From Ruminococcus sp. (lineage in GTDB: Bacteria > Bacillota > Clostridia > Oscillospirales > Ruminococcaceae): DNA of 45,655 nucleotides. Shown here piece after piece: positions 10,448-45,655 of the stretch. Within the stretch, counting starts at the first letter, position 1, and every line of letters starts with the position of its first letter. The position numbers and the translations under genes were made by a program. The notes beneath the pieces were generated by a model. That model saw only the letters and a program-made list of their open reading frames with translations, was not told where the DNA came from and did no database searches. The stretch covers positions 1-45,655 of the forward strand of contig JAFZRF010000028.1 of NCBI GenBank assembly GCA_017620025.1. The letters run 5' to 3'.

Positions 10448-10545
10448 TGATACAAAGTTGAAAAAAGATGATAAAAACTGGCATATTTTCCGACATTTAT
10501 ATTACGTAAAGGATGTTTCGCATCACTCACGAGGGAGGTATTACA

Positions 10546-12063
10546 ATGAAAAGAACAATAGCAGCAATGGCAGCAGCAGTTATGACGGCTGCAATGACGG
10601 GATCGGTATTTGTTTCCGCCGAGGATTATGAAAAGCCGGGTCCGAGATATGCCGAGCCTGAACCGGTATGCGGCGATCTGAATGATGACGGCAGCGTGGA
10701 CACCTTCGATCTTGTTCTTATGCGCGGAAAAATAGGCAGCGACAGCAGTATTGCAGATTTAGACGGCGACGGCGTTGTTGACGAATACGATCTGAAGATA
10801 CTTTCCGATTTTCTGCTCTCCGCAGGCGATACCGACAGCTATTCGCCGGTGGGCAGCGTGCAGTACACTCCCCGCAATGCTAAGATAGCGGCGGATAATG
10901 AAGTGACTGAGGATATCGTAAAGCCGCAGATGAAGTTCAGCGTTGACCTGCTGAAAAAGACATTCAGCAGCAAGAAGGAAAAGAATCTCCTTGTATCACC
11001 GCTCTCCGTGAATGTGGCGCTCGGTATGACTGCAAACGGTGCGGCAGGGGATACCCTCACCGAGTATATGGATGAGCTCGGCGGCGGTATGGATCTTGCA
11101 AGCTATAATGACTGCATGGCAGATATGATTGCAAGGCTCACCTCGTCTGAAAAGTCGGTCGTGGATATAACTGATTCCGTATGGTTCAGACAGAACGGCG
11201 GCGAAGGCTGCTTTGTGAAGAAGCCCTTCCTCGACAGCGTTGCAAAGTATTTCGGTGCAGATGCATTCGGCACACCGTTTAATGAGCAGAGCGTAAAGGA
11301 TATCAACAAGTGGGTATCGCACGGCACTCACGGCATAATAAACAAGCTCTTCAATGACGCATCGGATATCGAAAGGTTTGATATGCTGCTTGTCAATACC
11401 CTGTACTTCAAGGGTACATGGGATAATCCTTATATGGGTTCTGGTCAGGATGTGTTTACCAATTACGCCGGCGAGGAGGTCCTGACGGAATTCCTGACAG
11501 ATGATGAACGCTGGTATATAGAGGGCAACGGCTATACGGGCTTCCGCAAGGATTACGAGGGCAACGATTTCAGCTTCGTCGGCATACTTCCCGCAGAGGA
11601 AACTGATATATACGATTTCGTGGAGAGCCTTGATGCAGAGGAGCTTCACAAGTCGATAACAGGCGCAAAGGACATATACAAGTCAGAAGAGAGCGTTCAG
11701 CTCCGCACCAGAATGCCCAAGCTCAAGTACGATAACGATATGCATATCAAGGACATGCTGGCGGATATGGGGCTTTCAAACGCTATGTCAGGGGCTGCGG
11801 ATTACAGCAATATGGCGGATGTGCCGCTGTATGTCAGCGACGTTATCCACAAGACCGCTATAGAGCTTGACGAGTCGGGAACGGTTGCCGCAGCAGTTAC
11901 CGCAGTACCTATGGAGAAGGGTATTCCCATGTATGAAAATACGTACAAGGTATATCTTGACCGTCCTTACGTATATATGATAATGGACAATAAAACAGGC
12001 CTTCCGCTGTTCATCGGCGTTGTGACAGAACTCGACGACACGCCGGTCGATACAGCTGAATAA
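10546..12063 (+). CDS. Secreted serpin with an N-terminal dockerin
   Basis: This is a 505-residue secreted protease inhibitor. The start is the ATG at 10546 behind GAGGGAGG (10531-10538). Residues 1-25 are a signal peptide ending near VFVSAED. Residues ~42-95 are a dockerin with two calcium loops, DLNDDGSVDTFD and DLDGDGVVDEYD. Residues ~128-500 are a serpin domain with LLVSPLSVNVALGMTANGA and the C-terminal DRPYVYMIMDNKTGLPLFIG. The hinge before the reactive loop (DESGTVAAAVTAV) has the small residues that allow loop insertion, so it should be inhibitory. The scissile bond is uncertain, perhaps within MEKGI. By family knowledge the dockerin would dock it on a scaffoldin cohesin, guarding the enzyme complex from proteases. 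Confidence 0.92.
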   Translation: MKRTIAAMAAAVMTAAMTGSVFVSAEDYEKPGPRYAEPEPVCGDLNDDGSVDTFDLVLMRGKIGSDSSIADLDGDGVVDEYDLKILSDFLLSAGDTDSYSPVGSVQYTPRNAKIAADNEVTEDIVKPQMKFSVDLLKKTFSSKKEKNLLVSPLSVNVALGMTANGAAGDTLTEYMDELGGGMDLASYNDCMADMIARLTSSEKSVVDITDSVWFRQNGGEGCFVKKPFLDSVAKYFGADAFGTPFNEQSVKDINKWVSHGTHGIINKLFNDASDIERFDMLLVNTLYFKGTWDNPYMGSGQDVFTNYAGEEVLTEFLTDDERWYIEGNGYTGFRKDYEGNDFSFVGILPAEETDIYDFVESLDAEELHKSITGAKDIYKSEESVQLRTRMPKLKYDNDMHIKDMLADMGLSNAMSGAADYSNMADVPLYVSDVIHKTAIELDESGTVAAAVTAVPMEKGIPMYENTYKVYLDRPYVYMIMDNKTGLPLFIGVVTELDDTPVDTAE

Positions 12064-12224: not shown

Positions 12225-12373
12225 AACAGCAAGTTGGTGACAAGATCAGATATCGGAAGAGCCCGAAACGTACCCGCCCGGTGTCAGGGTGTGGGCACAT
12301 CTGCCGTAAAAGGGCTTCTCCGGTGATCTGAAGGTATAAGACCATGGCTTTATCATTCGGGGGTTTTATACAA

Positions 12374-12412
12374 GTATGCCTGTGCAATTTTGTGCAGGCA
12401 TACAATTTTTTT
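12374..12412 (+). terminator. Terminator or attenuator before the lipoprotein serpin
   Basis: GTATGCCTG (12374-12382) pairs with CAGGCATAC (12395-12403), and seven T residues follow at 12406-12412. It either ends the dockerin-serpin transcript or attenuates the second serpin, whose ribosome site lies ~65 bp further on. The loop and right arm share tttTGTGCAG and ATACAA with the hairpin region of the first serpin. Confidence 0.65.
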
Positions 12413-12493
12413 ATCCTGATGCAGCAGATAGCTTCCCGTAAGACACTATATTTACAAAGGGCATCAATGATGCTGACGGAAGGAGAATCTGAT

Positions 12494-13747
12494 ATGATGA
12501 AAAAAATGGCGGCCTTTATTGCGGGCCTTATGATGATAACGGGAGCCTGCACGGGCTGTGCTCCGCAGGCAGGGAATACAGCAATCGGCACTGAGCTTGC
12601 CGTGAGCCGTGAGGAGGGAAAGGAGCCCGACAGTCTCTATACCTCCGCACAGATGAAGTTTGCCACAGAGCTTTTCAGGCTCACCTTTGCGGCAGACAGC
12701 GACAGGAACGTGCTTGTATCGCCCTTCTCGGTGTATACCGCACTTGCCATGACCTCCAACGGAGCCACAGGTGACGGCCTTGCATCCTTTGAGGAACTGC
12801 TCGGCGGAGGCCTCACTGTCGACGATATCAATGAATACACAGCCGCCATGATAAACCGCCTCAACGCCACGGAGGACGGCGAGGTCAATATCCTTGATTC
12901 CATATGGTTCAGGGATGATGACAGCTTCAGGGTGAATACGGATTTCCTGAAGGAAACATCCGCTTATTACGGTGCGGACGCCTTCAAGGCCTCCTTTACA
13001 CCCGAGACTGTCAGGGAGATAAACAAGTGGGTGGATAATGGCACAAAGGGCATGATAGAGAAGCTTATCGACAATCCGGATGAGTTTGATGAGGAGACAG
13101 TCATGGTGCTTGTCAACAGCCTTTACTTCAAATGCGGATGGGCGAATGAGTATACAAGCTCACGCCCCTCTGAGTTCACTGCGGCAGACAGCACCGTAAG
13201 CACCCCTGATACCCTGTTCGGTACAGAGGATACCTACTACGAGGGCAAGGGCTATACAGGCTTCTCCAAGCCCTACAAAGGCGGATTCAGCTTCGTTGGA
13301 CTGCTTCCTGACGAGGGCACGGATATAGTGGACTTCATCAATTCACTTGATGCGCAGGAGCTTGCAGACACGCTTTCAAAGCCAAAGGATGGCACGGTAC
13401 ATACCTCCATGCCCAAGCTCAGCCTTGATTATGACAAGGACCTTCTCGGTATAGTCGGCGAAATGGGACTGAACAGCAGCGGTCTTGAGAACATAGCAGC
13501 GCCGGATTCTCCGTCAAAGGAGTTCGGCATCAGCAAGATAATCCACAAGACGAAGATAGATCTTAACGAGACAGGTACTGAGGCCGCAGCGGCAACGGCT
13601 GTGGAGATACGCAAGTTGGAAGCGGTCATTGCAAATCCGGAAAAGAGTTATTACGTATATCTGAACCGTCCCTTCGTATATATGATAGTGGACGATGCAA
13701 CAGGTCTGCCGCTCTTCATGGGAGCAGTGCTTGACGCAGCGGAGTGA
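12494..13747 (+). CDS. Serpin lipoprotein
   Basis: This is a 417-residue protease inhibitor. I chose the ATG at 12494, which follows GGAAGGAG (12478-12485) by 8 nt; an adjoining ATG at 12497 is possible. The N-terminus is lipoprotein-like: a hydrophobic core ends in MITGACTGC, with Cys19 or Cys22 as lipidation site. The serpin fold spans residues ~50-415 and includes LVSPFSVYTALAMTSNGATG and NRPFVYMIVDDATGLPLFMG. The reactive-loop hinge NETGTEAAAATAVEI (from about residue 358) is a textbook inhibitory hinge. The loop is about seven residues longer than in antitrypsin, so the cleaved bond cannot be named. There is no dockerin: it would sit on the cell membrane, whereas its neighbour is secreted. 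Related gut-bacterial serpins inhibit host or bacterial serine proteases. Confidence 0.92.
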   Translation: MMKKMAAFIAGLMMITGACTGCAPQAGNTAIGTELAVSREEGKEPDSLYTSAQMKFATELFRLTFAADSDRNVLVSPFSVYTALAMTSNGATGDGLASFEELLGGGLTVDDINEYTAAMINRLNATEDGEVNILDSIWFRDDDSFRVNTDFLKETSAYYGADAFKASFTPETVREINKWVDNGTKGMIEKLIDNPDEFDEETVMVLVNSLYFKCGWANEYTSSRPSEFTAADSTVSTPDTLFGTEDTYYEGKGYTGFSKPYKGGFSFVGLLPDEGTDIVDFINSLDAQELADTLSKPKDGTVHTSMPKLSLDYDKDLLGIVGEMGLNSSGLENIAAPDSPSKEFGISKIIHKTKIDLNETGTEAAAATAVEIRKLEAVIANPEKSYYVYLNRPFVYMIVDDATGLPLFMGAVLDAAE

Positions 13748-39251: not shown

Positions 39252-39306
39252 ATAATTGTAAAGGAGCGTTTTGTGCCCTTTACGTACAGAAAGAGGAGAT
39301 AATAGA

Positions 39307-40596
39307 ATGAAACTTAAAAAAGGACGTGCCGCAGCAGCTATCGCTGTTCTGGCTGTGCTGATAGTATCCGGTGTGAGCTGTGCTTCAAAGGTGATAGGCA
39401 ACACGAATGACAGCTCCGGAAACGAAGACGGCGCAGGTGCGCCTGCTGCAACTGAGGCAGCAGAACCGACAGAAGCCCCGACCGAAGAGCCGACGACACT
39501 GCCGGTGCCGGAGGACAAGCGCGTACACGTCGACGCTGTGGGCGATGACCTGATCCACTATTCGGTATACAAGAACGCCGAGGAGCTTGCAGGCCCCGGT
39601 GAGAATTTTAATTTCAAGCCGATGTATGAGAACGTGAAGTATCTCATTGAGGCAGCAGATGTTGCAGTGATCAATCAGGAGACGATAATCTCCGAGAGCA
39701 ACGAGATCCGCGGCGCAAACGGCGGTGCTCTCCTGTTCAACTCTCCGCCGGAGGTGGCTGATGCAGTCATCGATCTCGGATTTGATGTATTCACGATGGC
39801 CAACAACCATCTTCTTGATTTCGGCCCGGAGGCACTTGAGGAGTCGATAAACTTCTGGAACCGCAAGGCTCAGCAGTACGACCTGACAGTCCTCGGAGCA
39901 TACCTCAACGAGGAGGATGCCAACCGCATCCGTGTCCGTGAGGTAAACGGCGTGAAGATCGCCTTCCTTGCATACGCAGAGCATATCAACGGCTTCGAGA
40001 TCCCTGATTATTCATCCCTCAGAGTTGTAATGAACTACGAGGAGGACGTCATCGAGCGTCAGATCAAGGAAGCAAGAGAGCTTGCAGATGTAGTCATCGT
40101 TGCCGCACACTGGGGCGGCGAGGATACATTTGAGGTATCCGATGACCGTATCGAGCTTGCGAACAAGATGATCAACTGGGGCGCCGATGTGATACTCGGC
40201 GGACATACCCACACTCCCCAGACTATGGAGTGGATAACCCGTGATGACGGCACGAAGGGATTCGTGTTCTACTCCCTGGGCAACTTCATATGTGCTCAGA
40301 CAGACAATTTCAACCTTGTAGGCGAGATGGCTGATTTCGACCTCGTTGTCAACGGCGAGACCGGAGAGGTCACGATAGAGGATGTAGGCGTTATTCCTAC
40401 CATAGTTCACTATGATGATGGTAATTTCTCTAACCTCCGCATCTACCCCTACAGTATGTATACACCGGAACTTGCGGCGAGTCACGGCATCCCCTATGCG
40501 ATACCCCAGGGTACCTATACGAGCTTCAACTGGGACATCCTCAACGGCATCATAGACGAAGCCATTCCTAAGGAATTTCAGAAACTCGATAAATAA
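39307..40596 (+). CDS. CapA-family lipoprotein (metallophosphatase fold)
   Basis: This 429-residue protein has a lipoprotein signal (VSGVSC, Cys at about residue 25), then a Thr/Pro/Glu-rich linker (~35-75) and a CapA/PgsA-type domain. Motifs of the metallophosphatase-like fold are AVGDDLIH, NQETI, ANNHLLDFG, AHWGGE, LGGHTHTPQ and YSLGNF. CapA proteins take part in poly-gamma-glutamate capsule synthesis or export. No capB/capC genes are nearby, so it may act alone on another wall polymer or as a surface phosphatase. The ATG at 39307 has AGAGGAG upstream. No clear terminator follows. Confidence 0.88.
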   Translation: MKLKKGRAAAAIAVLAVLIVSGVSCASKVIGNTNDSSGNEDGAGAPAATEAAEPTEAPTEEPTTLPVPEDKRVHVDAVGDDLIHYSVYKNAEELAGPGENFNFKPMYENVKYLIEAADVAVINQETIISESNEIRGANGGALLFNSPPEVADAVIDLGFDVFTMANNHLLDFGPEALEESINFWNRKAQQYDLTVLGAYLNEEDANRIRVREVNGVKIAFLAYAEHINGFEIPDYSSLRVVMNYEEDVIERQIKEARELADVVIVAAHWGGEDTFEVSDDRIELANKMINWGADVILGGHTHTPQTMEWITRDDGTKGFVFYSLGNFICAQTDNFNLVGEMADFDLVVNGETGEVTIEDVGVIPTIVHYDDGNFSNLRIYPYSMYTPELAASHGIPYAIPQGTYTSFNWDILNGIIDEAIPKEFQKLDK

Positions 40597-40724: not shown

Positions 40725-40753
40725 TTTACTTTTTTTGAGTCCTGTTATATAAT
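40725..40753 (+). promoter_or_regulatory. Promoter of the scaffoldin cluster
   Basis: TTTACT (40725-40730), 17-bp spacer, TATAAT (40748-40753). Start expected near 40760, ~250 nt upstream of the scaC ATG. No terminator is visible between scaC, scaA and scaB, so this may serve all three. Confidence 0.7.
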
Positions 40754-40759
40754 AAAATC

Positions 40760-40998
40760 GTGAATAAATATAGAAGATGGGAATAGTATCTGATCACGGC
40801 AGTGTGAATCAGTCCTGAGAATGACTGCTGCCGGGACGAGTCCGGATACAACTCCTGACGGTCCTATACTCACGGTTTTGTTCACTGCGGTCACTCAGAC
40901 CCCGCCGCTTGTCCGAATCGGACCCGGATTAGCGGCTAAAATCACGATATAATAAAAGGGGCACCTGTTCCTTTGTTATATATAATCAATGAAGAAGG
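40760..40998 (+). promoter_or_regulatory. Structured 5' leader of scaC
   Basis: The untranslated leader has several stems: GGCAG/CTGCC (40798-40802/~40828-40832) with inner AGTC/GACT; a CCGG/CCGG stem near 40831-40845; GGTC/GACC in the middle with GCGG/CCGC around it (about 40886-40907); and CCGCT/AGCGG enclosing GTCCGAATCGGAC (about 40905-40935). An AGGGG/CCTTT stem lies close to the ribosome site AAGGAGG. I recognise no riboswitch consensus. The 412-bp gap 40597-41008 otherwise holds only the promoter and AT-rich DNA. Confidence 0.5.
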
Positions 40999-41008
40999 AG
41001 GAAAAAAC

Positions 41009-41812
41009 ATGAAGACAAAAAAGATGATCATCGGAGCTATGGCTGCAACGATGCTTTCACTCTCAGTCTGCTCTTATGTACCGGCTGTAGCTGCTGACGA
41101 CACAGTGCAGATAACCGTCAGCAAAGAGTCAGCAAAGGTAGGAGGGGCTTTTGAAGTGAAAGTTTCCGTGGCCGACATTCCGGCTAATGGTATTCAGTGT
41201 CTTAACTTCGCTCTGGAGTATGACAGCAATGTGATTACCATTGACTCCGTAACAGCTGGAGCTGCAACAAAGACAGGAGCAGAGGGCGCAGATACCTCAT
41301 CATCAATGCTCCCTACTTTCAACAGCTTTAGTGAAGGAGAGGGCGTAGTCGCCGTAATGTGGTCAACAGCAAGCGATGCGTCTTATTGGCTGAAGAACGA
41401 TGGCGAGTTCGTTGTCGTTTCCGGTAAGGTCAACTCAGGTGCTAAGGACGGCGATGTTGCAAACATCAAGGTCGTTCCTACAAAGCGTGATACCTACACA
41501 GGTTCAGGCGTTGCAAACAAGGCTATCGACTGCGGTTATACCAAGGGCGATGAAGTTGTAAAGTACACTGTAAAGACCACTGACGGAAGCGTAACAGTTG
41601 GAGATAACGTGACAGCAGGCCTTAAGGGCGATGCTAACTGCGACGAAAAGGTAAATGTTGCAGATGCAGTTGCAGTACTCCAGTACATTGCTAACCAGAC
41701 CAAGTACCCGCTCACAGAAACAGGTAAGCTTAATGCTGACTGCGACGGAACAGCTGGTATCACTGGCGGCGACGCTACCATGATTCAGAAGATTGACGCT
41801 GGTATTGCATAA
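41009..41812 (+). CDS. scaC: ScaC-like adaptor scaffoldin (cohesin plus dockerin)
   Basis: This is a 267-residue secreted protein. Residues 1-29 are a signal peptide (cut near AVAADD). Residues ~31-195 are a cohesin: IPANGIQCLNFALEYDSNVI is the typical early strand pair and a GKVNSGAKDGDVANIKV end is present. Residues ~204-267 are a dockerin with loops DANCDEKVNVAD and DCDGTAGITGGD. One cohesin plus one dockerin, first in the cluster, is the layout of ScaC in Ruminococcus flavefaciens, which plugs into ScaA and changes the set of enzymes bound. Start at the ATG at 41009 after AAGGAGGA; codons upstream have no site. Confidence 0.85.
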   Translation: MKTKKMIIGAMAATMLSLSVCSYVPAVAADDTVQITVSKESAKVGGAFEVKVSVADIPANGIQCLNFALEYDSNVITIDSVTAGAATKTGAEGADTSSSMLPTFNSFSEGEGVVAVMWSTASDASYWLKNDGEFVVVSGKVNSGAKDGDVANIKVVPTKRDTYTGSGVANKAIDCGYTKGDEVVKYTVKTTDGSVTVGDNVTAGLKGDANCDEKVNVADAVAVLQYIANQTKYPLTETGKLNADCDGTAGITGGDATMIQKIDAGIA

Positions 41813-41910
41813 GTTACTCTGAGATTATCTGATTTGTCCCCCTTACAAAGGAATACAAACCCAAATAAGCAAAAATAATAGGTTAAGCCTAAAGAAAGGA
41901 ATTATTACAA

Positions 41911-44163
41911 ATGAAGAAACTGATTTCTGCAGCTACATCGCTTGCGATGGCTGCATCAATGGCAAGTGCAGTTGTTCCTTTTGCTACAGGTGCGGCTGCC
42001 CTCAAGACACTCGAGATTAAGATGTTCAACGGCGCAAGCGCTACTATTTCAGCTGATGCTATTGCTGCCGATGACGTTAAGGTTCCGATTGGAATTTATC
42101 TCAAGGAAGCTACTCCTACATCTGATTCTATTTCAGCTCAGATCACAGTTAAGTCATCTAACGGTGATGCTAAGGCTGTAGAGTTCGAGGCAATTAGCCC
42201 CGGTCAGGCAAAGTACTTCTCCGAGCCTACACCTTTCACCGGTGCAGACGGTGCTACTTATAATATTACACAGGCTCCCGGATTTGCCGGACTGCTCAAG
42301 ACTGGTTCAACCAGAGACCTTTATACATCTGTCGGCACAGGTATCTACAATGCTGACGCAAGCTACGCAAAGGGCGGCACAGATACTGCTTATGCTTCTC
42401 TTGCATGGGTTGCTCCCGATGACGGATATGCATGGGCAGGTACATCATCTGATGCACTTCCTCTCATGATCGTTGAAGTTAAATTCCCCAAGGGAACAAA
42501 GGCAGGCGATTACGAGATCCAGTTCCTCGACTACGAGAGCGATGACAAGAACGCAGACATCATGTCTTGTATGATCGAGTCAAGCGACGTTGAGGGAAGA
42601 AAGATGACCACAAAGAATGGTAATCTTGCTCTCGGCGATCCGCTCAAGATCACAGTTGGCAACGGCGGTTCTTCTGAGCCGGCAACAGAGCCTCCTGTAA
42701 CTCAGCCCCCTGTAACTCAGCCTCCTGTAACTGAGCCTCCTGTAACTCAGCCCCCTGCTACACAGGGCAATCCCGGACAGAGCTTAACACAGCCCGGCAC
42801 AAAGTCTCAGGCTGGTGCAGCTACATGGGAGAAGGGCGATTCACTTGATACATTCATCGTTAAGTCCGGTGAAGTTGAGGTTGAGGCTGGTAAGACAGCT
42901 ACAATCAATGTAATGGTTGAGTCCGGCGGTATCGACGTTGCTCAGCTCGTTGCAAGACTCAATGACAGAGATCTTCCTACAGGCTTCACAGTAACAGGTA
43001 TCGGCGACGGTATCTCTGAGGCTTGCGGTGACAGAGCTCCTGAGAAGCAGGGCGAGTTCTACTACATCAACAACCTCAAGACTGACGGTTCAGCTCAGCC
43101 TGTTGATGATGATTGCTTCGTAATCCAGTATGATGTTAAGGTTGACAATACAGTTCCTACCGGTGAGTACGAGTTCGCACTCTCAAGATTCACAGTAGCT
43201 ACAGACAGCAAGAATGCTTTCGAGGCTAAGATCCTTCCCGGTAAGATCAAGGTTACAAACCCGAATCCTGAAGTAACACCTATAGAAACAACAACAGTGA
43301 AGGTAACTGAGCCTCCGGTTCAGACTGAGACAACTCCTGTAGGTACAAAGGATCAGTCCGGTGCAGCTACATGGGAGAAGGGCGATACACTTGATAACTT
43401 CATCGTTCACTCTGGTGAGGGCAAGGTAGACGCTGGTAAGAAAGTTGTAATCAACGTAATGGTTGAGTCCGGCGGAATCGACGTTGCTCAGCTCGTTACA
43501 AGACTTAACGACAGAGACCTCCCCAACGGCTTCAAGGTTGTTGGTATCGGCGACGGTATCTCTGAGGCTTGCGGCGACAGAGCTCCTGAGAAGCAGGGCG
43601 AGTTCTACTACATCAACAACCTCAAGACTGACGGTTCAGCTCAGCCTGTTGATGATGAATGCTTCGTAATCCAGTACGAGATCCAGGTTGATGCTTCAGT
43701 TGCTCCTGGCGATTACGAGTTCGCACTCTCAAGATTCACAGTTGCTACAGACAGCAAGAATGCTTACGAGGCTAAGATCCTCCCCGGCAAGATCACTGTT
43801 AACGGCCCTGTAACAACAACAACAGAGGGCGGTCAGACAGCAGAGACTACAACTACAACACCTGTAGTTGAGCCTACAACAGCTCCTACAGAGCCCGGCA
43901 CACCTGCAACAAACCTCACACCTACATACGGTGATGTAAACTGCGACGGTAAGGTTAATATTGCTGACGTTGTTATCCTTTGCGGATGGCTCAACGATTC
44001 TTCTGCATACGATATGAAGGATCAGAACAAGCTCAACGCAGACTGCTGCGATGAGAAGGGCGGCACAGAGATCAACTCTAACGACGCTGATGCTATTCTC
44101 CAGAATATCATTGACCTCGTTCAGCTTCCCTGCAAGAGCACTGACCTTAAGTCATTCTCATAA
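41911..44163 (+). CDS. scaA: ScaA-like scaffoldin (two cohesins plus dockerin)
   Basis: This is a 750-residue secreted protein. Signal peptide ~1-30; an N-terminal beta-rich module ~31-250 that may be a divergent cohesin (DALPLMIVEVKFPKGTKAGD); a PPVTQ/PPVTE linker ~256-290; cohesin-like module ~303-450; short linker; module ~485-632; a Thr/Pro linker; dockerin ~673-745. The two modules are close copies 182 residues apart and share SEACGDRAPEKQGEFYYINN. Dockerin loop 1 is regular (DVNCDGKVNIAD), while loop 2 (DCCDEKGGTEINSND) looks stretched. In the known system ScaA binds enzymes through its cohesins and ScaB through its dockerin. GAAAGGAA lies before the ATG. Confidence 0.82.
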   Translation: MKKLISAATSLAMAASMASAVVPFATGAAALKTLEIKMFNGASATISADAIAADDVKVPIGIYLKEATPTSDSISAQITVKSSNGDAKAVEFEAISPGQAKYFSEPTPFTGADGATYNITQAPGFAGLLKTGSTRDLYTSVGTGIYNADASYAKGGTDTAYASLAWVAPDDGYAWAGTSSDALPLMIVEVKFPKGTKAGDYEIQFLDYESDDKNADIMSCMIESSDVEGRKMTTKNGNLALGDPLKITVGNGGSSEPATEPPVTQPPVTQPPVTEPPVTQPPATQGNPGQSLTQPGTKSQAGAATWEKGDSLDTFIVKSGEVEVEAGKTATINVMVESGGIDVAQLVARLNDRDLPTGFTVTGIGDGISEACGDRAPEKQGEFYYINNLKTDGSAQPVDDDCFVIQYDVKVDNTVPTGEYEFALSRFTVATDSKNAFEAKILPGKIKVTNPNPEVTPIETTTVKVTEPPVQTETTPVGTKDQSGAATWEKGDTLDNFIVHSGEGKVDAGKKVVINVMVESGGIDVAQLVTRLNDRDLPNGFKVVGIGDGISEACGDRAPEKQGEFYYINNLKTDGSAQPVDDECFVIQYEIQVDASVAPGDYEFALSRFTVATDSKNAYEAKILPGKITVNGPVTTTTEGGQTAETTTTTPVVEPTTAPTEPGTPATNLTPTYGDVNCDGKVNIADVVILCGWLNDSSAYDMKDQNKLNADCCDEKGGTEINSNDADAILQNIIDLVQLPCKSTDLKSFS
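42672..42766 (+). repeat. 15-bp repeats coding the ScaA Pro/Thr linker
   Basis: About five in-frame copies of a CCTCCTGTAACTCAG-type unit encode PPVTQ/PPVTE. It is a typical inter-module linker of scaffoldins and prone to length change by slippage. Confidence 0.8.
42817..43806 (+). repeat. Tandem duplication of a cohesin module in scaA
   Basis: The segments starting at 42817 and 43363 are direct copies 546 bp apart. The stretch from about 43005 to 43115 is nearly identical to about 43551-43661 at the DNA level, while the module edges have diverged. This indicates recent duplication or gene conversion. Confidence 0.8.
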
Positions 44164-44225
44164 GTTCTTTAATAAGGACGCAAATCCAATAAAATAGAGC
44201 ATATGCTCGGAAAGGAAATGCACAG

Positions 44226-45655
44226 ATGAAGAAACTGCTTTCGGCAGTTACATCCTTTGTGATGAGCACCTCGCTCATCACAAGTGCATTTGCCTCTTCC
44301 TTTAACGTTAGCGCTGCCGGCAGAATTTCTGCTGAGCAGCCTAATGTTAGTATGGAAGATGTAATGGATGTTTCTGCCTTATTAACAGCATCATCATACA
44401 ATGCTGGTACTGCTGTGAATGACTTCGTTGTAGACTCAGGCTCCGCATCAGGTAAGCCCGGTGATAAAGTTACTATCAACGTTAAAGTAGATTCAGGCAG
44501 CTACACAGTAGCGCAGATCGTTGCAAGACTTATCGACGAAGACCTGCCTTCAGGCTTCAAGGTTGTCGGAATCGGCGACGGTGTAAGCGAAGCAGCGAAT
44601 GATGCTCCTGCTACCAAGCAGGGAGAATTCTACTATTTCAATACACTTAAGAACGGTGAACCTATCAAACTTGATGACAGCAAGGCTGTAATGCAGTTTG
44701 AGGTTCAGATCCCGTCAAGTGCAACTCCCGGAGATTACAGTTTCTCACTTTCAAGATTTACTGTAGCTCCCGACCGTACAGGTATTATCGAGGCTAAGAT
44801 CAACCCCGGTAAGATCACAGTAACAGGTAACGGTCAGACACAGGAAACACAGGCACCTCAGACTCAGGCTCCTCAGACACAGGCGCCTCAGACTCAGGCT
44901 CCTCAGACACAGAACAACCAGTCCGGAGGCGGCGCAACCTGGGATAAGGGCGCAGCAAAGGACGATTTCGTTGTTTATACTGGTGACTGGACAGCCAAGC
45001 CCGGTGAGACAAAGACCATTAATATCATGGTTGAGTCAGGCGGAATGGATATAGCTCAGATCGTTACAAGACTTAACGACAGAGATCTTCCCTCAGGCTT
45101 CTCAGTAACAGGTATCGGCGACGGTATCTCAGAGGCTTGCGGCGACAGAGCTCCTGAAAAGCAGGGCGAGTTCTACTACATCAACAACCTTGCTACAGAC
45201 GGTTCAGCTCAGAAGATCGACGACAGCAGCTATGTTATCCAGTACGATATCAAGGTTCCGTCAACTGCTTCCGGAAAGTATGAATTCTCACTTTCCAGAT
45301 TCACAGTTGCTTCCGACGGCAAGACAGTATACGAGGCTAAGATCATCCCCGGTTCTATTACTGTTGACGGCGGTTCACAGCCTGTAACTACAGAAAAGGT
45401 TACATCGGCACAGCAGACCAATGCTCCCAACACACAGGCACAGCAGACAAATGCACAGACTCCTGCAGCTGAGTGGGACAAGGGACCTGCAAAGGACGAT
45501 TTCATCGTTTACACAGGCGACTGGACAGCTAAGCCTGGCGAGACAAAGACAATCAACATTATGGTTGAATCCAACGGTCTTGCAGTTGCTCAGCTCGTTT
45601 CAAGACTGAATGACAGAGATCTCCCCGGCGGCTTCTCAGTAACAGGTATCGGCGA
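44226..45655 (+). CDS. scaB: ScaB-like scaffoldin, 5' part (cut by window end)
   Basis: An open frame of at least 476 codons runs off the window. The ATG at 44226 follows AAAGGAA by 8 nt, 62 bp after scaA. Residues ~1-38 are a signal peptide. Cohesin-like module 1 is ~65-199, then an APQTQ repeat linker (~203-231), module 2 ~236-382, a Gln/Thr/Asn linker, and module 3 from ~414 to the edge. Modules 2 and 3 closely resemble the ScaA cohesins (LNDRDLPSGFSVTGIGDGIS). Module 1 is more divergent. In R. flavefaciens ScaB has many cohesins, with an ScaA-like group first, and an X-dockerin end that binds wall-bound ScaE. None of that end is visible here. Confidence 0.78.
   Translation, partial: MKKLLSAVTSFVMSTSLITSAFASSFNVSAAGRISAEQPNVSMEDVMDVSALLTASSYNAGTAVNDFVVDSGSASGKPGDKVTINVKVDSGSYTVAQIVARLIDEDLPSGFKVVGIGDGVSEAANDAPATKQGEFYYFNTLKNGEPIKLDDSKAVMQFEVQIPSSATPGDYSFSLSRFTVAPDRTGIIEAKINPGKITVTGNGQTQETQAPQTQAPQTQAPQTQAPQTQNNQSGGGATWDKGAAKDDFVVYTGDWTAKPGETKTINIMVESGGMDIAQIVTRLNDRDLPSGFSVTGIGDGISEACGDRAPEKQGEFYYINNLATDGSAQKIDDSSYVIQYDIKVPSTASGKYEFSLSRFTVASDGKTVYEAKIIPGSITVDGGSQPVTTEKVTSAQQTNAPNTQAQQTNAQTPAAEWDKGPAKDDFIVYTGDWTAKPGETKTINIMVESNGLAVAQLVSRLNDRDLPGGFSVTGIG
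44849..44910 (+). repeat. 15/30-bp repeats coding the ScaB APQTQ linker
   Basis: Four in-frame CCTCAGACNCAGGCN units, arranged as a nearly exact 30-bp pair, encode APQTQAPQTQ. It links cohesin modules 1 and 2. Confidence 0.8.

Follow-up and report, generated by a model that had tools for sequence, protein, structure and literature searches.

The DNA analysed here, called the window below, is the whole of one contig (C31; 45,655 bases) from the draft genome of an uncultured Ruminococcus (G000; 2.7 Mb in 70 contigs, 75.9% complete). Its right end carries scaC, scaA and the 5' part of scaB, which encode cohesin-bearing scaffold proteins of a cellulosome, together with an upstream capA-like neighbour and a conserved leader before scaC [Table 1]. 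This is very probably the first part of an ordinary sca cluster of the Ruminococcus flavefaciens type, equipped with the cohesin-dockerin plug code of its own species and with a structured leader. Clusters of this kind are known; what is new is the leader, and the comparison of cohesins extends a pattern previously known from a few strains.

The sca cluster at the contig end

The three consecutive secreted proteins that the initial annotation had placed here in the order scaC-scaA-scaB are seen in the translation, and their modules, order and flanks agree with the published cluster of strain 007C, capA-scaC-scaA-scaB-cttA-scaE-orfA, said to be arranged as in strains 17 and FD-1 (PMC3672088). 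As in that cluster, the window has scaC, scaA and scaB in this order after capA. ScaC, proposed to be a cohesin plus a dockerin, indeed combines a single type I-like cohesin (Pfam 4.1e-14), for which the PDB gives the ScaC cohesin of R. flavefaciens (5lxv, E 5.5e-44) as best match, with a dockerin that matches the group 1 dockerin 5m2o_B (4.2e-11) and lies 0.1 bit below the Pfam cut-off (1e-4); an alternative upstream TTG start at 40973 is possible. ScaA joins its cohesins to the unique group 5 dockerin, the best match of which is the solved ScaA dockerin 5n5p_B (2.9e-16).

The expectation that domain searches would recognize cohesins and dockerins in all three proteins held for ScaC with Pfam and for the ScaA dockerin with 5n5p_B; it failed for the cohesins of ScaA and ScaB, in neither of which Pfam detected a cohesin, Pfam and NCBIfam together giving only weak, unrelated rows. 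Blindness of Pfam to Ruminococcus cohesins has been noted earlier (PMC11557425). Because Pfam misses these modules, we built a type-III cohesin profile of our own, seeded with four whole cohesins of the window chosen by eye and iterated over the open reading frames of 65 related loci and the window. E-values of the window's own cohesins follow from this construction, and the published counts for FD-1 and 007c serve as the control: the profile recovers two cohesins in ScaA and nine in ScaB of FD-1, and at least four in ScaB of 007c. In the window it recovers one cohesin in ScaC and two in ScaA; ScaB has two complete cohesins, and a third, cut one is seen as a 182-nt DNA repeat. ScaB alone matched the solved ScaB cohesin 5aoz no better than at 0.012, and a mixed alignment of the four window cohesins and 19 from relatives matched solved FD-1 cohesins at 1e-43 to 1e-48, FD-1 rows being included in that alignment.

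Table 1. Genes, modules and leader elements at the right end of the window.
Feature	Position	Strand	Evidence
capA-like gene (PGA_cap), upstream neighbour of the cluster	39271..40596	+	Pfam PGA_cap 2e-62
Putative sca operon promoter, TTTACT, 17 nt, TATAAT	40725..40753	+	consensus scan; box in relatives
Conserved structured 5' leader of scaC, 255 nt, candidate cis-acting RNA	40754..41008	+	alignment, fold, covariation
Leader 5' domain (model R1), hairpin H1 around CACGGCAGUGUG	40754..40826	+	R1 71.6 bits (window is 1 of 38 model rows)
Leader 3' domain (model R2), hairpin H3 GAUAUAAUAAAAGGGGC...GUUCCUUUGUUAUAU, then Shine-Dalgarno AAGGAGG	40930..41008	+	R2 92.7 bits (window is a model row)
scaC: signal peptide, type I-like cohesin, dockerin	41009..41812	+	Pfam, PDB match, cohesin profile
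scaA: signal peptide, N-terminal module of predicted cohesin fold, two cohesins, ScaA-type (group 5) dockerin	41911..44163	+	profile, PDB, AlphaFold2
ScaA N-terminal module, 230 residues modelled	41986..42675	+	AlphaFold2, structural matches
ScaA cohesin 1	42838..43257	+	cohesin profile
ScaA cohesin 2	43384..43803	+	cohesin profile
ScaA dockerin and C-terminus	43918..44163	+	5n5p_B, residues 670-742
scaB, 5' part: signal peptide, cohesins 1 and 2, start of cohesin 3; cut by contig end	44226..45655	+	profile, DNA repeat
ScaB cohesin 1 (ScaA-type)	44409..44825	+	cohesin profile, tree
ScaB cohesin 2 (ScaA-type)	44952..45368	+	cohesin profile, tree
Start of ScaB cohesin 3	45474..45655	+	DNA 81% identical to cohesin 2 over 182 nt

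The contig ends (position 45655) inside the third cohesin of scaB, and the rest of the cluster was not found in this 75.9%-complete assembly, where queries with ScaB, ScaE, CttA and the PP-ATPase returned other family members or weak matches; the best ScaE match was a ScaE-type cohesin on contig C43 whose frame also holds a dockerin. That the end of ScaB, CttA and ScaE are absent from the window's own assembly counts against our assignment. In the closest relative (genome G104), the end of ScaB with its X-dockerin, cttA, scaE and the PP-ATPase lie in this order on contig C28, the ScaB of its cluster contig (L126) running up to the contig end with the remainder on a second contig. Sequence passes scaB in nine of 15 fetched relatives, and genes of cttA and scaE size follow in all nine. 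Of 64 rows examined, 63 (62 loci and the window) have scaA preceded by a scaC-type gene, and only locus L149 does not; L176 and L177 were left out of this count because the start pattern missed their scaA. A misassembled contig end, with the cluster placed in this genome by a binning error, is highly improbable: the contig does stop within a repeat (cohesins 2 and 3, 81% DNA identity), but scaC stands before scaA in 62 named loci as it does in the window, and the window's genome holds 80 matches to the ScaC dockerin.

Taken together, cluster order and modules, at least 146 dockerin matches (150 of 238 candidates scored) and 10 sortase matches in the window's genome, and the rest of the cluster in G104 support the claim that this organism builds a flavefaciens-type multi-tier cellulosome. 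The LPXTG anchor proposed for ScaE calls for a refinement: the sorting signals of the relatives' ScaE proteins read xPxTG, in which the leucine is lacking and the proline follows S, A, N or D (13 of the signals were caught by a pattern requiring P-x-T-G).

Scaffold cohesins and a proposed plug code

Among the modules of the cluster, the cohesins of ScaA differ most from one locus to another. When the best pair of ScaA cohesins is taken for each two loci, the median identity is 23%, as compared with 34% for the ScaA N-terminal module and 46-49% for the ScaC modules; the ScaA dockerin stands at 60% and CapA, encoded next to the cluster, at 78% (L149 omitted; the number of loci differs by module). 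Within a locus the situation is reversed in many cases: ScaA-type cohesins stand at the start of ScaB in 33 of the 45 loci with both genes (identity of the ScaA-ScaB pair 55-99%, median 84%), the other 12 showing no ScaA-ScaB cohesin pair at 40% or more, with some ScaB frames cut by contig ends. The two ScaB patterns, those of FD-1 and 007c, were known from three strains (PMC4081043). The 12 loci without such a pair, which include 007c, ND2009, SAb67, MA2007 and YL228, make up one side of a branch with support 100/99 in a tree of the ScaC cohesin and the N-terminal module, the root of which is not settled; the FD-1 and 007c patterns therefore sort by lineage. On sequence grounds, the ScaB of the window is of the FD-1 "mixed" type, its first cohesins being of the ScaA type: cohesins 1 and 2 fall into a starred clade of 15 rows with the ScaA cohesins of the window, L126 and YRD2003, in a tree that warns of long branches. 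Later ScaB cohesins of the second type are found in L126 (cohesins 6-9).

In 24 of the 33 mixed loci, the ScaB copy of the same locus is closer to ScaA than is the ScaA of any other locus. Third codon positions are 97% identical between scaA and scaB in L135, L138 and L129, and some ScaA-ScaB cohesin copies thus appear to be recent. Weighing against homogenization within each genome, the ScaA of another locus is as close or closer in the remaining nine, the window among them (68% within the window, 77% with L126), so that the process would have to be slow or patchy. The same nine loci (e.g. L144 and L187, 92% to each other and 67% within the locus) are what one would expect if the like cohesins of scaA and early scaB were slow paralogues from one old duplication, with no exchange between the genes. 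We consider such a history quite improbable, given that ScaA cohesins of different loci share a median of 23% identity, about the level seen between cohesin types, whereas pairs of the same locus reach 99% with third positions 97% identical.

Dockerins behave in a comparable manner. In searches covering four genomes, the ScaC dockerin of the window had 80 matches in its own genome, itself among them; 62 other dockerins of that genome have 59-80% identity to it with E 2.3e-19 or better, and the best FD-1 match reached 1.2e-16. The ScaC dockerin of FD-1 retrieved 95 matches in FD-1, near the 96 group 1 dockerins published for this strain; the top 64 rows were all from FD-1 and the best foreign one had E 6.2e-12. 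Across loci, identities of the ScaC dockerin correlate with those of the ScaA cohesins when the N-terminal module is controlled for (partial rho 0.35, 0/999 permutations) and also when CapA is added as a control (0.29, 0/999). No correlation with the ScaA cohesins was found for the ScaC cohesin (0.05, 229/999; with CapA added, 0.00, 463/999) or, with the N-terminal module controlled for, for the ScaA dockerin (0.08, 135/999). With CapA as a further control the ScaA dockerin does correlate with the ScaA cohesins (0.26, 1/999), which counts against the reading proposed below.

The cohesins of ScaA and early ScaB are kept alike within a genome and change fast from one species to the next, and dozens of dockerins change along with them; these patterns suggest a plug code proper to each species. 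That cohesins and dockerins recognize each other in a species-specific way is a long-standing idea for clostridia. The present comparison adds that two scaffold genes are alike within genomes across one genus, a genus-wide cohesin pattern of which we found no report among the top-ranked papers of each search of the open-licence literature. By analogy with FD-1, enzymes with ScaC-type dockerins would plug into the cohesins of ScaA and the first cohesins of ScaB; ScaC would carry a second set of enzymes and plug into the same places; ScaA would plug into the later cohesins of ScaB, and the X-dockerin of ScaB into a sortase-anchored ScaE. The enzymes expected to assemble on ScaA are those with the roughly 80 ScaC-type dockerins, and the code would indicate which cohesins and dockerins can be mixed in cellulosome engineering.

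ScaA had been described as carrying two clear cohesins and an unassigned N-terminal module. Both cohesins are real and the module is conserved among the relatives; "unassigned" can now be refined to a predicted cohesin fold with a long insertion. AlphaFold2 modelled it with a mean predicted local distance difference test (pLDDT) score of 95.6 and a predicted template modelling (pTM) score of 0.92, and cohesins fill the structural matches of this model, with mostly 130-155 residues aligning. Pfam, run on 56 N-terminal modules, found no family in more than eight of them (best E 0.0033). Whether the module binds a dockerin at all or is instead a structural cap or sugar-binding module built on the cohesin fold is a question on which we see the chances as evenly balanced. 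In favour of a cap or sugar-binding module are its size (about 230 residues vs about 140 for a cohesin, of which mostly 130-155 align) and its weak sequence similarity to cohesins (best PDB E 0.19). On the side of docking are the predicted fold, which is that of the cohesins, the location in a scaffoldin, and the response to the cohesin profile, with which 41 of 63 N-terminal modules have an independent E-value below 0.01 and the best scores 23.6 bits as against 7.4 for 315 shuffled copies; this best-scoring module, that of L158, was possibly absorbed into the profile in its last round. The module is an extra docking candidate in the primary scaffold of the whole group.

A conserved leader before scaC

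Position 40725, at which the initial annotation let the cluster begin, is the -35 box of a promoter-like site. Such sites are no commoner in the region than chance predicts (6 against an expected 5.9), and the putative sca promoter alone does not stand out from this background; each of the 61 extracted leaders has a TATAAT-like box in front of it, the extraction having looked for the box and dropped none. Counterparts of the leader, 176 to 397 nt long, are present in 61 of 63 loci with scaC, window included; L158 and L162 were left out by the start pattern, and both were later matched by the models of the 5' and 3' domains, R1 and R2. The leader is conserved at its 5' and 3' ends and variable in the middle, L188 and L190 keeping the 3' end and little of the 5' domain. 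The forward primer of a published scaC-typing polymerase chain reaction falls on the UAAGAC segment and the 5' arm of H3 (PMC3197198), so conservation of this region was already known in the form of a primer site. We found no report of the leader as an RNA in the open-licence literature, among the top-ranked papers of each search.

A structure of four helices, in part drawn by RNAalifold from the same alignment and in part our own, was evaluated on 53 of the 61 leaders (eight near-copies left out). It pairs 92.8% of the cells, a figure that drops to 36-53% when the partners are slid against one another, and changes on both sides occur in 15 of 28 pairs, compared with 6.3 in shuffled alignments (0/500 as high); these counts are biased in favour of the structure, which comes from the same alignment of related rows. 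Three helices have changes on both sides in four or five pairs each, among them H1 (4/5 pairs counted) and a GUCUUA/UAAGAC helix (5/6 pairs, 85.6% of cells paired), and H3 has them in two of 12 with 99.7% of cells paired. An extra long-range pair between alignment columns 7 and 479 showed weak association only (P 0.05) and was dropped. The window leader folds with a z-score of -3.83, none of 200 shuffles being as good, and z is -2 or lower in 56 of 61 leaders vs 11 of 61 scaC coding stretches (20 shuffles each).

Of 26 loci held out from the R1 model, it recognized 25 at E up to 1, all before scaC, including 22 at 2.1e-5 or better; several of these loci are close kin of model rows, and the sole miss is L149, a scaA copy without scaC. 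A search of ten genomes, most of which contributed model rows (150 of about 600-2,000 first-look candidates scored per genome), gave one strong R1 match in each, at scaC, and an extra weak match in G006 (E 0.57). No R1 copy was found in 43 other loci of the window's genome (215 kb with the window; short flanks) chosen for dockerins, cohesins, sortases or weak ScaE or CttA matches. R2 gave three weak matches (E 0.026, and 0.085 twice), and Rfam nothing at gathering score in the window or seven relatives.

Several observations weigh against this structure. RNAalifold itself paired GUCUU with the Shine-Dalgarno sequence, the UAAGAC partner having been picked by eye and then counted. In the alignment, the consensus GUCUUA/UAAGAC helix is absent from the window and L126, from which it follows that the lineage of the window has changed it. 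H3 is nearly invariant with little covariation, and a 101-nt stretch around it folds no better than shuffles (z -0.69). With these points taken into account, we still hold with considerable confidence that a conserved RNA structure exists in the leader.

Two other explanations of the conservation were considered. That the region works as DNA, through a promoter and regulator sites, would fit with its start at the -10 box and with blocks such as GATATAAT, which are almost invariant in the manner of protein sites or a second -10 box. We regard it as unlikely in view of the two-sided changes in 15 of 28 pairs (6.3 in shuffles, 0/500), of the fall in pairing from 92.8% to 53.4% or less upon sliding, and of folding at z -2 or lower in 56 of 61 leaders as opposed to 11 of 61 coding stretches. 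Action through a short upstream peptide, by attenuation, is suggested by an ATG or GTG at the seventh base after the -10 box in 54 of 61 leaders, as for a leaderless start, most of the peptides opening with MNKY-like residues (positions 40760-40783 in the window). This explanation appears rather improbable to us: the seventh base starts an AAG in six of 61 leaders and a GTA in one, the peptides range from 5 to 67 residues with no common stop, and no Shine-Dalgarno sequence precedes the putative leader peptide.

As to what the conserved RNA might do, we propose that it may control how well the scaffold mRNA is translated or how stable it is. Terminator-like sites are no more frequent than expected by chance. 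About 13 nt separate the end of H3 from the Shine-Dalgarno sequence; as the local fold leaves the latter open, translation would be the default. Pairing of GUCUUA with the UAAGAC just before H3 would leave the Shine-Dalgarno sequence open; alternatively GUCUUA may pair, less well, with the Shine-Dalgarno sequence itself, which the UUCCUUU of the H3 arm could also mask. A five-base complement to the Shine-Dalgarno sequence lies somewhere in 59 of 61 leaders, and the alignment has UUCCUUU in most. Since H3 looks more stable than the pairing of UUCCUUU with the Shine-Dalgarno sequence, something would have to open it. A signal that shifted the balance between open and masked states, for which a sugar, a metabolite or an RNA-binding protein can be named as candidates, would set the amount of scaffold. 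That the leader is a true switch is possible, if doubtful; equally tentative is the proposal that it represents a new class of switching RNA, one that would sense a signal of growth on plant fibre and set the amount of scaffold genus-wide through an open or masked ribosome site. In FD-1 grown on cellulose, scaC, scaA and scaB were raised together about 4.5-fold (PMC2721979). A leader standing before the operon and kept in 61 loci offers a concrete, testable element for the joint regulation of these genes.

Related loci and known systems

The window's genome and those of its relatives contain other scaffold-like loci. Contig C10 of the former encodes a 1,637-residue protein with 11 tandem Pfam dockerin stretches (G000:C10:70523-75436, L036:2524-7437, minus strand), whose N-terminal region is cohesin-like by eye; that region was found in only five of 125 genomes of the genus. 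On the same strand and adjoining it (G000:C10:75621-83309, L036:7622-15310) are genes for a protein with a cohesin and leucine-rich repeats, a 569-residue protein without a Pfam match and a lipoprotein-like cohesin protein; the group may be a second surface scaffold system. At G000:C57:33444-34121 (L037:7445-8122) a small lipoprotein-like protein with one cohesin (Pfam 2.9e-6) is encoded, beside a dockerin protein that is serpin-like by eye. The lipoprotein-like cohesins of C10 and C57 were considered as ScaE and rejected, no scaB end or cttA adjoining them in the stretches read. Adjacent secreted proteins with similar C-terminal ends, again serpin-like by eye and the first with a dockerin match, are encoded in the window itself (10513-12063 and 12344-13747). 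L149 (JAFXSC010000008, 9983-11959) is a second ScaA-like protein with the N-terminal module and two cohesins, beside which no scaC or scaB was found and which has no match to the leader models R1 and R2. Long open frames in two relatives (G104:C22:31053-33446 and G013:C29:303366-305276; 1,375 and 2,382 residues) hold two or more ScaE-like matches each, and no frame of this kind was matched in the window's genome.

The nearest relative of the cluster is CAMKMD010000025 (L126, genome G104), also from an uncultured Ruminococcus, which is 71% identical to the window in ScaA, 92% in CapA and 89% in the ScaC cohesin, shares its leader variant, and differs in having the remainder of its cluster on another contig. 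FD-1 has the same gene order and modules as the window, two ScaA cohesins, a ScaB that starts with ScaA-type cohesins and a leader before scaC, whereas identity between the two is only 22% in the ScaA cohesins, 41% in the ScaC dockerin and 34% in the N-terminal module. The ScaA dockerin of the window has Cys at the FD-1 contact residue Asn-669 and Ile for Val-721, with the numbering placed by us from the published text. Strains 007c and 17 (L181) have the order capA-scaC-scaA-scaB-cttA-scaE-orfA that is characteristic of the window's type; 007c differs in having three cohesins in ScaA and no ScaA-type cohesins in the available part of ScaB. The multi-dockerin protein of the C10 group resembles a protein published for 007c and 17 (PMC4081043) in having tandem dockerins in one chain, and differs in the number of its Pfam dockerin stretches (11 vs seven dockerins).

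For the leader, the closest known RNA is caiA (Rfam RF02934), in which a hairpin is likewise followed by UUAUAU and AAGGAGG before the start codon. The likeness is confined to the 3' part, and with scores of 29.7 and 24.6 bits, short of the 55.5 set by Rfam as gathering score, the leader does not count as a member of this family. The stem-loops of the cip-cel operon of Ruminiclostridium cellulolyticum (PMC10311766) are likewise RNA structures acting on a cellulosome mRNA; they differ in that, by the title of that work, they concern mRNA processing.

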